Below are positions 21,247-25,364 of a DNA stretch of 35,237 nucleotides, one piece after another. The DNA comes from Betaproteobacteria bacterium (GTDB lineage: Bacteria > Pseudomonadota > Gammaproteobacteria > Burkholderiales > Burkholderiaceae_A). The position numbers and the translations under genes were made by a program. The stretch lies in the NCBI GenBank assembly GCA_016868305.1, contig VGHK01000021.1:1-35237 (forward strand), written 5' to 3'. Every line of letters begins with the position of its first letter. Position 1 is the first letter of the stretch. Under the pieces are notes generated by a model. That model was not told the DNA's origin, made no database searches, and worked only from the letters and a program-made list of their open reading frames with translations.

Positions 21247-22110
21247 ATGGCAGCCGCACGCATGTTATGCATCTGGGCTCGCCCGCCCCTGGCCTTTGCG
21301 GCCATCCTGATGGCAATTCAGGCCCCCGCCTTGGCACAGCTATTTTCAGACGATGAGGCACGGCGCGCCATTCTAGATCTTCGCGGCCGCCTTACCCAGA
21401 TTGAGGCAAAACAGACCCAGATTGAGGCTCGACAGGCGCAGACCGAATCCCGTCAGGCCGAGCTGGCTTCAATGGGCGCCCGTGTCGATGGCCTCGCACG
21501 CGCCCAGCTGGATAATGCCGCGACCGCGGAGACCATGCGACGAGACATTGCCCAGGTTCGAGGAGCTGTCGAACAGCTCGTGCAGCAGCTCAAGTTAAGT
21601 GAAGACCAGCAGCGCCAGCTCATCCAACCCATCAACGCCCAGCTGCAGTCTGTCTACGCGCGTCTTGCCGCCCTTGAGCCTCAGCCTGTTATGGTGGACG
21701 ACCAGCGCGTGATGGTCTCAGCCTCCGAAAAGTCCGCATTCGAAGCAGCCCAGTCGCTCTTGGCTTCGCGTGCCCTAGAGGCCGGTGCAGCGGCTTTCTC
21801 TGAGTTCAACGCCCGATTCCCCAGCTCTGCCCTGGCGCCCTGGGCCTTAAGCGCTGAGGGTGCAGCCTACTACGCCATCAAGAACTACCCCATGGCGATT
21901 GAGGCACTGTCCCGACTCGCCCGTGACCACCCAAGCCATAGCCGAACGGCAGATGGCCTTCTCACGCTTGCCGCGAGCCAGGCCGAATCAGGCCAGACAA
22001 CCGCCGCGCGGGGAACACTGGCTGCCATCCCCAAGCGTTTCCCGAGCACCGAGGCGGCGCGTACCGCCACCCAAAGGCTTAAAGCGCTACCGACCGCTGG
22101 GTCCAAATGA
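21247..22110 (+). CDS. cpoB: Cell division coordinator CpoB (YbgF)
   Basis: A periplasmic TPR protein that couples PBP1B activity to Tol function at septation. The 287 residues include a signal peptide ending near PALAQ (about residue 31). A Gln-rich trimerising coiled coil with heptad-like repeats (TQIEAKQTQIEARQAQ, about 50-130) follows, then C-terminal TPR repeats (about 155-285). Its stop overlaps the next gene's ATG (ATGA). Confidence 0.92.
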   Translation: MAAARMLCIWARPPLAFAAILMAIQAPALAQLFSDDEARRAILDLRGRLTQIEAKQTQIEARQAQTESRQAELASMGARVDGLARAQLDNAATAETMRRDIAQVRGAVEQLVQQLKLSEDQQRQLIQPINAQLQSVYARLAALEPQPVMVDDQRVMVSASEKSAFEAAQSLLASRALEAGAAAFSEFNARFPSSALAPWALSAEGAAYYAIKNYPMAIEALSRLARDHPSHSRTADGLLTLAASQAESGQTTAARGTLAAIPKRFPSTEAARTATQRLKALPTAGSK

Positions 22111-23210
22111 TTGAGATCGCTGAGGTTCAGGCCCTCAGCGCATGGGTAGTATCGAGTGGTCTTGCCATTGGGCTGGTCTTCGGTGCTGCGATGCAGACCG
22201 GCCGGTTCTGTACCCTTGGCGCGCTGTCAGACTGGGTCTTAATGGGAAACACGGTCCGGATGCGTCTCTGGATTTTGGCCATGGCTGTAGCCATTGTCCT
22301 GACACAAGCCGCCGTAGGCCTTGGCCTGCTTAAAGACTCCGACAGCTTCTACACCAGTAGTCGTCTTTTGTGGCTCTCCCATATTCTCGGAGGACTGCTC
22401 TTCGGCTTTGGCATGGCGCTGGCCTCAGGCTGCGGCAGCCGAATCCTGGTGAGAGTCGGCGAGGGTAGCCTCAAGGCCCTGGTGGCCTTCCTGGTCATGG
22501 CGCTCGCGTCATTCATGACCATCCGAGGCATCACTGGCGTGCTACGCAGCCAGACCGTAGAGCAGGTCTTCCTTACCCTTCCCACGCAACAAGACCTGGT
22601 AAGCCTGGCCGCATTGGCCTTCGGCATCGAACTCACAAGCGTCCGCCTGGTACTGGTTCTAGTGTTGGTTACAGGTATGCTGGGATTCGTGGTCTTCGCC
22701 CCTGGTCAGGGGCTTTCGCGAAAAGGCATTCTCACCGCTGGCCTAGTGGGCGCCTGTATTGCCGCAGGATGGCTCACCACAGGCTGGCTGGGCTTTGTTG
22801 ACGAACACCCCGACACCCTGGCGCCAGCCTATCTGGTAACCAATACCCGCGGTCCCGAAAGCCTCACCTTTGTCGCACCGCTGGCCTACAGCCTTGAGCT
22901 CTTGCTCTACTGGAGCGACCGATCCCAGGTGCTCACCTTTTCGGTGGCCACGGTCCTGGGCACCGTGCTCGGTGCTGCCGGCGCCGCACGGGTCTCAAAG
23001 CGTTTTCAATGGCAGGGCTTTGCCTCCATCACCGACCTCGGCCAGCATCTGGTGGGTGCCGCCCTCATGGGGATCGGAGGGGTTGTTGCGCTTGGCTGCA
23101 CAATCGGGCATGGGCTCACTGGTGTCTCGCTGCTTGCCCTCGGTTCGATTGTCTCCGTCTGCAGCATTCTTGCTGGCGGATGGGCCGGTCTTTGGTATCT
23201 GCAGCGTTAG
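22107..23210 (+). CDS. YeeE/YedE-family sulfur (thiosulfate-type) transporter
   Basis: A polytopic inner-membrane protein of the YeeE/YedE (DUF395, TsuA) family; characterised members import thiosulfate. The 367 residues have about nine hydrophobic segments. The conserved cysteines of the pore are present in GRFCTLGAL (about 33-41), ASGCGSR (about 107-113) and LGCTIGHG (about 330-337). The ATG overlaps the cpoB stop, so it belongs to the tol transcript, where relatives often carry queE or queC instead. The exact substrate (thiosulfate, sulfide species or selenium compounds) is unproven. Confidence 0.85.
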   Translation: MIEIAEVQALSAWVVSSGLAIGLVFGAAMQTGRFCTLGALSDWVLMGNTVRMRLWILAMAVAIVLTQAAVGLGLLKDSDSFYTSSRLLWLSHILGGLLFGFGMALASGCGSRILVRVGEGSLKALVAFLVMALASFMTIRGITGVLRSQTVEQVFLTLPTQQDLVSLAALAFGIELTSVRLVLVLVLVTGMLGFVVFAPGQGLSRKGILTAGLVGACIAAGWLTTGWLGFVDEHPDTLAPAYLVTNTRGPESLTFVAPLAYSLELLLYWSDRSQVLTFSVATVLGTVLGAAGAARVSKRFQWQGFASITDLGQHLVGAALMGIGGVVALGCTIGHGLTGVSLLALGSIVSVCSILAGGWAGLWYLQR

Positions 23211-23217
23211 TCGCTGC
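23201..23217 (+). terminator. Hairpin at the end of the YeeE gene
   Basis: GCAGCG (23201-23206) and CGCTGC (23212-23217) form a perfect 6-bp stem with a TTAGT loop that contains the TAG stop. No T-run follows, so it may stabilise the mRNA end or act with Rho rather than be a classical terminator. Confidence 0.4.
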
Positions 23218-23310
23218 CCTAGACGAGTCTCACGAACACAACAATCTTCGCCCTATTTCAGGGCCTGACCAGCTTTTTCTTCCTGGACACTACACAAGAG
23301 ACCAAAAATC

Positions 23311-23328
23311 TGTAAAAATGTGTTGACA
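23311..23328 (+). promoter_or_regulatory. PpsR/CrtJ-type operator 1
   Basis: TGT (23311-23313), 12 bases, ACA (23326-23328) is an exact match to the TGT-N12-ACA consensus of PpsR/CrtJ, the redox- and light-linked repressor of photosynthesis genes. It covers the -35 hexamer TTGACA of the puc promoter. Confidence 0.75.
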
Positions 23329-23351
23329 GTTAGGTGTGTCTATTTTTAAAT
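23323..23351 (+). promoter_or_regulatory. puc operon sigma-70-type promoter
   Basis: A consensus -35 TTGACA (23323-23328) is followed after 16-17 bp by TTTAAA/TTAAAT (23345-23351) as a -10. It is the best promoter in the 254-bp gap before pucB, and predicts a leader of roughly 105 bases. Confidence 0.65.
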
Positions 23352-23354
23352 ACA
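23337..23354 (+). promoter_or_regulatory. PpsR/CrtJ-type operator 2
   Basis: TGT (23337-23339), 12 bases, ACA (23352-23354) is a second exact TGT-N12-ACA. It starts 8 bp after site 1 ends and covers the -10. A wider inverted repeat AGGTGT-N14-ACACCT (23332-23357) overlaps it. Paired sites 8 bp apart are the classical arrangement for cooperative CrtJ binding at the Rhodobacter bchC promoter. Confidence 0.75.
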
Positions 23355-23464
23355 CCTAGCTCGTAAGGGTGTTTTAGGTTTCCTGTCTAGGGCTTGAAGC
23401 GGAAATACAGAGATACCCGACCGTGTCGTTCAAAACTTTCGAATGAAAACAAGGAGTTCGAACT

Positions 23465-23617
23465 ATGAGTGATAAAGACAGAGTCTGGCCCACCGGCCTG
23501 ACAGAAGCCGAGTCGGAAGAACTGCACCGCAACCTCATTCAGGGCACCCAGTTTTTTGGCCTGATCGCTGCGTTTGCGCACCTTCTGGCTTACATCTATT
23601 CCCCCTGGCTGGGTTAA
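23465..23617 (+). CDS. pucB: Light-harvesting 2 (B800-850 type) beta polypeptide
   Basis: A 50-residue bacteriochlorophyll-binding antenna subunit of the inner membrane. The opening VWPTGLTEAESEELH closely resembles the LH2 beta chain of Rubrivivax gelatinosus and differs from LH1 beta chains, so I call it PucB rather than PufB. His39 in AxxxH is the ligand of the lower-energy ring, and His21 is the conserved N-side histidine. One transmembrane helix spans about 27-46. Eight residues after His21, where R. acidophilus LH2 has Arg20, there is Gln29. AAGGAG at 23451-23456 is a strong ribosome site 8 bp before the ATG. Confidence 0.95.
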   Translation: MSDKDRVWPTGLTEAESEELHRNLIQGTQFFGLIAAFAHLLAYIYSPWLG

Positions 23618-23629
23618 GGAGGCACGATC

Positions 23630-23854
23630 ATGATCTACGGAAAAATGTGGTGTGTCGTGCGTCCCTCGTTCGGAGTGCCGCTCTTAATCGGTGCTGTCGC
23701 AGTGGGGTCCTTTGCAGTGCACCTGGCCCTACTCACCCACACCGACTGGGTGCCCCGTTTTCTAAACGGTGGCCCCCCCGCAGCAAAGGCTGCACTCGTC
23801 GTTCCTGCGGCAGAGGTGGCGGCTGTTCCGGCGCCTCAGGCCGAAAAGCTCTAA
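23630..23854 (+). CDS. pucA: Light-harvesting 2 alpha polypeptide, B820-like
   Basis: A 74-residue LH2 alpha chain, 12 bp after pucB with AAGGAGG overlapping the pucB stop. His31 is the ring bacteriochlorophyll ligand, and HTDW follows at 37-40. It aligns without gaps with the R. acidophilus alpha chain from Met1 to Gly48, apart from the C-terminal tail. Positions 44-45 are Phe-Leu instead of the Tyr-Trp that hydrogen-bond the ring pigments in 850-nm complexes; Phe-Leu is the pair seen in the 820-nm LH3. Residues 49-74 are an Ala/Pro-rich tail like that of Rubrivivax gelatinosus LH2 alpha. The identification as LH2 alpha is firm; the absorption shift is inferred. Confidence 0.94.
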   Translation: MIYGKMWCVVRPSFGVPLLIGAVAVGSFAVHLALLTHTDWVPRFLNGGPPAAKAALVVPAAEVAAVPAPQAEKL

Positions 23855-23865
23855 ACCCGAAGCAT

Positions 23866-23896
23866 CCCAGAGGGGTAGTACCAAGGCCTCTCTGGG
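23866..23896 (+). other. Intercistronic hairpin after pucBA
   Basis: CCCAGAG (23866-23872) and CTCTGGG (23890-23896) form a 7-bp stem 12 bp after the pucA stop. A pyrimidine-rich, U-poor stretch follows. In purple bacteria a hairpin here protects the short, abundant BA message and lowers pucC expression; the same role is inferred. Confidence 0.6.
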
Positions 23897-23963
23897 TTCT
23901 TCCTCCGCTCCCCAAAGCCTCCTCCCTAGCCCCACCTCGCCGCTTTCTCGCAAAATCAAAGCC

Positions 23964-25364
23964 ATGGGCCAGCCTAAGAGACGCCTCGCGCAGTTCTGGG
24001 GTCAGCTTGGTCCCAAATTCCTTCCCTTTGCAGATGTAGCCACCGACGACCTTCCCCTGTCGCGACTGCTGCGTCTTTCCCTGTTTCAAGTCTCTGTCGG
24101 AATGGCCCTGGTGCTGCTCATCGGCACCCTCAACCGAGTCATGATTGTCGAACTCAGCGTTCCAGCGGCGCTTGTCTCCACCATGATCGCGCTGCCGATT
24201 CTTTTCGCCCCGTTTCGGGCGCTTATCGGTTTTCGGTCCGACCACTTTCAGTCTGAACTCGGCTGGCGGCGCGTGCCCTTTATCTGGAAGGGCAGCCTTG
24301 CCCAGTTTGGTGGCTTTGCCATCATGCCCTTTGCCCTGCTCGTGCTGGCAGGTGCAGGCCAGTCTGCCAGCGCGCCGCTCTGGGTGGGACATACCGCGGC
24401 AGCCGTTGCCTTCCTACTGGTGGGTATGGGCATACACACGGTACAGACCGTGGGCCTGGCCCTGGCCACCGACCTTACCGCCGAAGAGTCGCGGCCGAAG
24501 GTGGTGGGCCTCATGTATGTCACCCTGCTGGTCTCCATGATGGTCAGCGCCGTGGTCTTTGGCTGGCTGCTCAAGGAATATAGCCCCGGTCGTCTTATTC
24601 AGGTAATCCAGGGAGCCGCGGTGCTTAGCCTGGCTCTTAATGTCATTGCCATCTGGAAGCAAGAGCCGCGCGATCGCGCAAGAACCCGGGGCCAGGCCTC
24701 CCAGCGGCCTCAGTTTAAAGAGGCCTGGGCAGAGTTTACGGCTGTGCCTGGCGCCCGCAGATGGCTAATTGCCATTGGCCTTGGCACACTTGCCTTCACC
24801 ATGGAGGATGTTCTGCTAGAACCGTACGGGGGCGAAATCCTTGGCATGACGGTGGCCGCCACCACATTTCTCACCGCCACCCTTGCCCTGGGAAGCCTCA
24901 TTGGGTTTGGCTTTGCTGCCCAGACACTCAGCCGCGGGGGCGATCCCATGCGCATGGCGGGCCTGGGGGCACTGATCGGAATTCCCGCATTTCTTATTGT
25001 GATCATCGCCGCTCCTTTGGCGTCTTCTCTTTGGTTTTCCGCTGGCGTGTTTCTCATCGGGCTGGGCGCAGGGCTCTTTGGCCACGGAACACTGACCGCC
25101 ACCATGGGCCTTGCTCGTCCAGGACAATCTGGCCTTGCCCTTGGCGCCTGGGGTGCGGTTCAGGCAACCGCGGCAGGCCTTGGTATTGCCCTTGGGGGCA
25201 TTCTTCGCGATCTTGGCGGCTGGTTCACTGGGCGTGCAGAAGCCTATGCATTTGTTTATAGTCTCGAAGTGGCGCTGCTTTTGGCCACTTTAGTGGTAAT
25301 TGCCCCGCTTGTTCGACTGCCTGCGTCGCGCCAGTCTCCACAAGGACTGACCGACCATCCCTAG
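23964..25364 (+). CDS. pucC: PucC-family LH2 assembly transporter-like protein (BCD family)
   Basis: A major-facilitator-fold membrane protein of the PucC/LhaA/BCD group, needed for assembly of light-harvesting complexes and thought to deliver bacteriochlorophyll to nascent antenna chains. From ATG 23964 it has 466 residues and about 12 transmembrane segments. The family stretches LSLFQVSVGMALVLLIGTLNRVMIVEL (about 32-58), RFRSDH-like GFRSDH and LGWRRVPFIWKG are present. The frame is open upstream to 23769, but that region is out-of-frame pucA plus the hairpin. Location directly behind pucBA favours PucC over LhaA. Confidence 0.93.
   Translation: MGQPKRRLAQFWGQLGPKFLPFADVATDDLPLSRLLRLSLFQVSVGMALVLLIGTLNRVMIVELSVPAALVSTMIALPILFAPFRALIGFRSDHFQSELGWRRVPFIWKGSLAQFGGFAIMPFALLVLAGAGQSASAPLWVGHTAAAVAFLLVGMGIHTVQTVGLALATDLTAEESRPKVVGLMYVTLLVSMMVSAVVFGWLLKEYSPGRLIQVIQGAAVLSLALNVIAIWKQEPRDRARTRGQASQRPQFKEAWAEFTAVPGARRWLIAIGLGTLAFTMEDVLLEPYGGEILGMTVAATTFLTATLALGSLIGFGFAAQTLSRGGDPMRMAGLGALIGIPAFLIVIIAAPLASSLWFSAGVFLIGLGAGLFGHGTLTATMGLARPGQSGLALGAWGAVQATAAGLGIALGGILRDLGGWFTGRAEAYAFVYSLEVALLLATLVVIAPLVRLPASRQSPQGLTDHP

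Follow-up and report, generated by a model that had tools for sequence, protein, structure and literature searches.

The pucBAC locus and its genome

The window, a stretch of 35,237 nucleotides that makes up the whole of contig C21 in a 2.26-Mb, 97-contig, 97.45% complete assembly of a Burkholderiales bacterium, contains a puc operon with the following genes, codons and predicted regulatory sites:

23311-23328, forward strand: putative PpsR/CrtJ-type site 1 (pattern TGT-N12-ACA), preceding pucB
23337-23354, forward strand: putative PpsR/CrtJ-type site 2 (pattern TGT-N12-ACA), 8 bases past site 1
23465-23617, forward strand: pucB, LH2 beta chain, 50 amino acids (Pfam LHC, E = 7.9e-9)
23630-23854, forward strand: pucA, LH2 alpha chain, 74 amino acids, ATG start (Pfam LHC, E = 4.2e-8)
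23708-23710, forward strand: Ser27 codon TCC, from the pucA sequence
23750-23752, forward strand: Val41 codon GTG, from the pucA sequence and the alignments with 1ijd and 7ze3
23759-23764, forward strand: Phe44 codon TTT (23759-23761) and Leu45 codon CTA (23762-23764), at the positions of the Tyr/Trp or Tyr/Tyr donors
23964-25364, forward strand: pucC, LH2 assembly protein of the MFS type (PF03209, E = 1.5e-152 for the longer open reading frame, which opens at 23769; the likely ATG start at 23964 was picked by inspection)

The start of pucA is directly preceded by GGAGG and is separated from the end of pucB by 12 bases. The alpha chain has Gly26, the His31 of the first-pass annotation (codon 23720-23722) and an Ala/Pro-rich C-terminal tail, and its residues 3-50 align without gaps to the Rhodoblastus acidophilus chains 1kzu and 1ijd; the open reading frame, the Pfam LHC match and this alignment all bear out the description, in that annotation, of an alpha chain with Phe-Leu 13 and 14 residues past the histidine. 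Its best match in the PDB is the PucD-LH2 of Rhodopseudomonas palustris (7ze3, E = 1.6e-15), with 1ijd at 1.2e-14. The best PDB matches of the beta chain are likewise LH2 beta chains of Rps. palustris (7zdi, 1.8e-19; PucD-LH2 7ze3, 1.3e-17), and its best LH1 beta match (4v9g, 3.2e-8) is weaker. By sequence, both chains thus belong to the LHC family and lie nearest to LH2 chains, with NCBIfam alone dissenting on the beta chain. That model, NF040862, labels the pucB product LH1 beta (64.5 bits, cut-off 61); the label is probably wrong, and relatives could be misnamed in the same way.

The genes flanking the operon are ordinary: they encode glycyl-tRNA synthetase, SurA, LptD, purine synthesis, RuvB, TolB, an OmpA-family protein and a CoA-transferase, and pucBAC itself is located between a sulphur transporter gene and TRAP-transporter genes, whereas Limnohabitans planktonicus and Rhodoferax antarcticus are described as carrying puc inside the photosynthesis cluster. 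The gene pufM (TIGR01115) lies at the end of contig C37, which also carries a ppsR gene (TIGR02040, 451.9 bits); the open reading frames adjoining pufM are presumably pigment-synthesis genes, as named by eye. PF00124 has only one match in this genome, so pufL, and with it the expected site of pufBA, apparently coincides with a break between contigs. The search for further pucA copies that the first-pass annotation had recommended returned no other light-harvesting pair over the PF00556 cut-off in the 97.45% complete assembly, in which the LH1 genes were not found either; three more matches lie below the cut-off, at a loose limit at which control genomes match as well. A second pair could be missing, since the assembly breaks inside the puf operon, at pufL. 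The large chain of RuBisCO was not found in this genome.

Eleven genomes of the genus, several of them incomplete, were compared. The LH2 operon is present in three (the window's, G003 and G009), with no LH2 match in the other eight, and an LH1-type pair is present in seven, among them G003 and G009, where it lies at a separate place from the LH2 operon. The operon of the window thus has pucC downstream, and its separateness from the LH1 genes is seen in the two congeners that hold both. Within this one genus, each of the three species has its pucBAC genes (window positions 22107-25364 compared with L174 and L175) among different neighbours: in G003 (L175) they lie between an aldehyde dehydrogenase gene and gcvT, and in G009 (L174) they adjoin genes matching rubrerythrin and DUF3623, which we take to be AcsF-like and PuhE-like, respectively. 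The other genes of the window that were tested have no match within about 19 kb around pucBA of either congener (E = 1e-8). Among viral contigs, 74 stretches fitted a pattern and none encodes a relative, and no match was found among plasmid records.

Putative PpsR sites

PpsR probably regulates expression of the operon by way of the two predicted sites upstream. In the window as a whole the TGT-N12-ACA pattern shows no enrichment (3 occurrences, compared with 4.56 expected), and it is the location of the sites and their conservation that carry the argument. Among the 73 loci (of 81, the window included) with enough upstream sequence, 63 carry such a site within the 260 bases scanned, compared with 3.5 expected from single-base shuffles, and a gap of 8 bases separates the sites in 28 of the 30 loci that have two, again counting the window; near-identical loci in these counts are not independent. 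The ten loci with no site include the two labelled Limnohabitans (L077 and L099). PpsR sites also precede pucB in the betaproteobacterium Rubrivivax gelatinosus, where the gap is 9 bases rather than 8 and only the 9-base spacing is reported to have given redox-dependent binding (PMC4452267). By analogy, the antenna of the window may be under redox-insensitive PpsR control. The LH2 of Rvi. gelatinosus resembles that of the window also in a C-terminal extension of the alpha chain, to judge from the title of a paper cited in PMC4452267, but it is an 800-850 nm complex.

Comparison with characterised antennae

Among characterised complexes, the closest parallel is the PucD-LH2 (B800-803) of Rps. 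palustris, which shares with the window Val41, Phe44, a hydrophobic residue 45, a basic residue 43, Asn46-Gly47 and a near-identical beta C-terminus. At alpha residues 40-47 the window reads WVPRFLNG and PucD (7ze3) WVAKFMNG, and residues 40-45 of 1ijd are WYAAFL; the beta C-terminus is AYIYSPWL in the window and AYVYSPWL in both PucD-LH2 and the PucB-LH2 7zdi. PucD differs in having Met45 instead of Leu45 and Met26-Val27 instead of Gly26-Ser27, and in being one of several puc pairs, made at low light (PMC9618040), whereas one pair was found in the window's genome. The text of PMC9618040 once numbers the PucD pair in reverse; the chain itself has Phe44-Met45.

The first-pass annotation had likened the alpha chain to the B800-820 complex (LH3) of Rbl. 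acidophilus strain 7050. The parallel stands for Phe44-Leu45 and for the ungapped alignment, but not for position 41, where strain 7050 has Tyr and the window has Val, the state of the 803-nm PucD; strain 7050 also has Ala27, where the window has Ser27. As a rule, LH3 occurs beside an 850-nm LH2 in the same genome, as an alternative to it; the window's assembly, gapped at pufL, has yielded a single pair and could lack a second. An exception to the rule is Rfx. antarcticus, with Phe44-Phe45, one puc operon (the number found here too) and a band at 819 nm; its possession of LH3 without LH2 was then considered unique among the purple phototrophs (PMC5374385). Phe44-Leu45 is shared as well by the monomodal LH2 of the Roseobacter type ("LH4", about 804-806 nm), and a review describes F44L45 as the motif of monomodal antennae at about 800-806 nm in several aerobic phototrophs (PMC12654162). 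The same review gives the betaproteobacterium L. planktonicus a peripheral antenna at 799/813 nm and an LH1 at 865 nm (PMC12654162).

Predicted absorption band

Absorption by the ring bacteriochlorophylls of LH2 depends on hydrogen bonds to their C3-acetyl groups: two bonds correspond to a band at about 850 nm, one to about 825 nm and none to about 800 nm (PMC9618040). In strain 7050 the sole such bond is supplied by alpha-Tyr41, and PucD-LH2, with none, absorbs at 803 nm (PMC9618040). The rule is not tight, as the LH2 of Rhodobacter sphaeroides becomes a B800-826 complex when both donors are removed and Ser27, which bonds the C13-1 keto group of the beta-bound B850 pigment, is kept (PMC9618040). 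Both of the usual C3-acetyl donors are missing from the window, and a blue-shifted LH2, as the first-pass annotation had proposed, is therefore well supported from sequence. The donors at alpha 44 and 45 are replaced, as in LH3; the compensating Tyr41 of strain 7050 is absent; and Phe44 is combined with Leu45 in a chain that has no known alpha-chain donor to a C3-acetyl group, as in LH4, where residue 45 is Leu or Met. Aromatic residues at the end of the beta chain, which might have restored the bonds, do not set the band, as far as sequence can tell, because PucB-LH2, which absorbs at 856 nm (PMC9618040), and the 803-nm PucD-LH2 share this end.

We therefore assign a probability of about 0.72 to the reading that pucBAC encodes a blue-shifted, LH2-type peripheral antenna with no C3-acetyl bonds in a Burkholderiales phototroph that is probably aerobic and of fresh water. 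Its band is expected between 804 and 826 nm, most likely at 806-815 nm. In such a complex the alpha-beta pairs would form a nonameric ring, and with the donors at 44 and 45 gone and Tyr41 absent, the B850-type pair would have no hydrogen bond to either of its C3-acetyl groups; the unbonded acetyl groups could turn out of plane and move the ring band to about 804-826 nm, close to or merged with that of B800. A bond from Ser27 to the C13-1 keto group, as seen in Rba. sphaeroides, may persist and could hold the shift short of the 803 nm of PucD. Energy would then pass downhill from the antenna to an LH1 near 865-870 nm.

An alternative with some claim to consideration, though we think it doubtful, is a B800-820 complex (LH3) in which one C3-acetyl bond is kept by the beta Trp near the C-terminus or by Arg43, or in which the same colour is reached otherwise. 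A single bond would place the band at about 825 nm (PMC9618040), Rfx. antarcticus reaches 819 nm with Phe-Phe (PMC5374385), and in Marichromatium purpuratum a bond comes from beta-Trp47 (PMC9618040); a beta Trp is present in the window's chain as well. Typing of Rhodopseudomonas antennae assigns Met26 with Phe44/Met45 to the 800-nm form and Phe44 with Met45 or Phe45 to the 800-820 nm form (PMC5069747); on our reading of this scheme, Phe44 without Met26 goes with LH3, and the window has Gly26. The solved chain 9dwz, of which the spectrum is known by name alone (B-800/820 alpha), has Phe41-Phe44-Gln45, so a band at 820 nm is compatible with the loss of Tyr41, but Gln45 of this chain might itself be a bond donor. 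Against LH3 stand the replacement by Val of the Tyr41 that serves as donor in strain 7050 and the example of PucD, which has a basic Lys43 and nearly the same beta C-terminus yet no bond (PMC9618040). An assignment to 820 nm from Phe-Leu alone is thus an unsafe reading, and residue 41, and perhaps residues 26-27, are needed too.

It is improbable that a rotamer or another residue restores strong bonding and with it a band near 850 nm. There is a precedent in Gemmatimonas, where a different rotamer of one Trp is credited with the red shift of the outer ring (816 to 860 nm), the discussion naming two modifications; that outer ring, however, is derived from LH1 (PMC12817894), the alpha chain of the window matches the chain listed for the Gemmatimonas structures (7o0u_aa, the same sequence being found in 7o0w, a Gemmatimonas phototrophica structure) at E = 0.14 only, and the complexes reported as lacking the donors, both absent here, absorb at 803-830 nm (PMC5374385, PMC9618040). 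The chain 7o0u_aa may be that of the Gemmatimonas-type antenna (LHh) or of LH1. We give equally little weight to the proposal that the operon encodes an LH1-type or LHh outer ring rather than an LH2: the NCBIfam name of the beta chain agrees with it, and the LHh question has been raised for Limnohabitans (PMC12654162), but both chains are much closer to LH2 chains than to those of LH1 or Gemmatimonas, and the seven congeneric genomes with a separate LH1-type pair include the two that also hold the LH2 operon. Decay or silence of the puc genes, with Phe-Leu as a loss of function, is highly improbable. The presence of the operon in so few genomes of the genus would fit it, several of these genomes being incomplete; pucB, pucA and pucC are intact, however, the PpsR-type sites are conserved, and codons at residues 41, 44 and 45 have diversified synonymously. 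Among 73 Phe-Leu rows (the window and 72 named relatives), Phe44 is written with both of its codons, Leu45 with all six, and every synonymous codon of Val41 is represented. This variety indicates that what is conserved is the amino-acid pair rather than its codons, and that the pair is no chance reading or assembly slip; selection seems to maintain Phe44 and Leu45 in what we prefer to read as a blue-shifted LH2.

Distribution of the Phe-Leu pair

The first-pass annotation had regarded a blue-shifted LH2 as unusual in a betaproteobacterium and had asked whether Phe-Leu is specific to a lineage. Neither the sampled genomes nor the literature agrees with the former view. Among the best 80 of 280 matches in the genome collection, a set of relatives biased towards the window, 72 have Phe-Leu, 4 Tyr-Tyr and 4 Tyr-Leu. 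A sample of the order gave matches in 29 of 399 genomes, with 30 alpha chains, of which 29 are readable (the window's included); the commonest state is Phe-Leu, in 24 of the 29 (20 with Val41 and 4 with Phe41), followed by two Tyr-His and one each of Tyr-Tyr, Phe-Tyr and Phe-Met, and Tyr-Trp occurs in none of these 29 chains. The two counts overlap and are not independent (for example, L110 and L108 are from the genomes of L065 and L053, respectively). Left out of the count of 24 is L122, which reads as Phe-Leu if its in-frame stop at codon 7 is read through; this stop, at a Trp codon of pucA, marks either a pseudogene or a sequencing error.

At the family level, 9 of 26 genomes of the window's own family matched, with 6 Phe-Leu and 2 Tyr-His among 8 readable chains. 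The family of G282 (12 of 250 genomes matched) is mixed in residues 44-45, its 11 readable chains comprising 5 Tyr-Tyr, 3 Phe-Leu, 2 Tyr-Trp and 1 Phe-Phe. Tyr-Trp is found in two relatives of the same order (L155 and L156) and in three rows in all. The sample of the class matched in 3 of 369 genomes, namely the window's own, L148 (Phe-Phe) and one unreadable; L149, L160 and L163 are the unreadable alpha rows. The sample of the phylum matched in 12 of 398 genomes, 10 of them new, of which 6 have Phe-Leu, all with Gly26-Ser27-Val41 and all in family f263. This is probably the Roseobacter family; its chains begin with MNNAK or MNNSK, instead of MIYGK as in the window, and have another C-terminal tail. 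Phe-Leu is widespread in the order and occurs also in f263. Ser27 is present in 107 of 108 alpha chains.

The nearest named relatives by alpha chain are mostly metagenome-assembled genomes, many labelled as lake or pond samples. Two Burkholderiales-like genomes of this kind, L038 and L065, bear the organism names Klebsiella pneumoniae and Bordetella parapertussis, which look wrong. Two chains in the window's family, L015 and L016 (from the same genomes as L112 and L120), have Tyr44-His45; we know of no characterised LH2 with His at position 45, and the band of these chains is hard to predict.

Blue-shifted betaproteobacterial antennae are already published, for L. planktonicus (PMC12654162) and Rfx. 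antarcticus (PMC5374385). A single locus of this kind is ordinary, and among the sampled Burkholderiales the Tyr-Trp (850-nm) LH2 of the textbooks is not the prevailing form. What is added here is the correction at Val41, the frequency of the type and its recurrent switching. A Limnohabitans paper of 2018 may already describe these residues. Judged by titles and the openings of abstracts, no publication announcing an order-wide count of Phe-Leu was found, nor was any mention of "8Z81" found in the literature. The antenna may plausibly be an adaptation to aquatic light. For G. phototrophica, an 816-nm antenna is argued to serve better than one at about 860 nm as depth attenuates light (PMC12817894).

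Switching of residues 41, 44 and 45

A PucC tree was used to trace residues 44 and 45. Of its initial 108 loci, the 23 without a usable PucC were left out, including the Tyr44 rows L026, L027, L072 and L099 and the Phe-Tyr row L124; with L091 added, and with 5 of 17 further loci omitted (L148, L151, L158, L159 and L173, four of them with Tyr44), it has 98 rows. The fewest changes that it needs are 10 at residue 44 and 11 at residue 45, so the trait switches often, and no fewer than 5 changes between Phe-Leu and the other states are required by the branches with good support. Since the loci left out include Tyr44 rows, the true number of switches is, if anything, higher. Phe-Leu occurs to either side of the root, a distribution that points to an old origin; but no branch separates the outgroup from all other rows, and support is weak at many forks, so that ancestry can be put forward only as conjecture.

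Rows with a usable PucC have Phe44 in 83 of 83 cases when residue 41 is Val, and Tyr44 in 12 of the 15 others; among all 122 chains tallied, two combine Val41 with Tyr44 (L027 and L099). Joint switching of residues 41 and 44 is nevertheless not claimed, as the well-supported branches hold only five independent pairs, of which, in most pairings, four change in the same direction, none in the opposite direction and one shows no difference (p = 0.125). An exchange of Ser27 for the lost bonds is not claimed either, 1ijd and PucD both being without Ser27 and the Tyr-Trp rows so few.

On this evidence we propose, tentatively and as somewhat less than an even chance, that the default and perhaps ancestral antenna of freshwater Burkholderiales has Val41-Phe44-Leu45 with Ser27, forms no C3-acetyl bonds and absorbs at 805-815 nm, and that it has switched many times, through residues 41, 44 and 45, to redder Tyr-Leu, Tyr-Tyr, Tyr-His and Tyr-Trp forms. 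If this is true, the group constitutes a natural mutational series of spectral tuning in lakes. Close pairs that differ at few residues (L077 and L078 compared with L099, and L165 compared with L168) offer natural variants for the rule that relates bonds to colour. L077, labelled Limnohabitans, has Phe-Leu with Val41 and Ser27, whereas L099, under the same label, has Tyr44-Leu45. One genus in the family of the window, g2, includes both Tyr-His and Phe-Leu chains. In genus g673, the closely related L165 and L168 have Val41/Phe44/Leu45 and Tyr41/Tyr44/Val45, respectively, and two possible hydrogen-bond donors appear, from their sequences, to have changed together.
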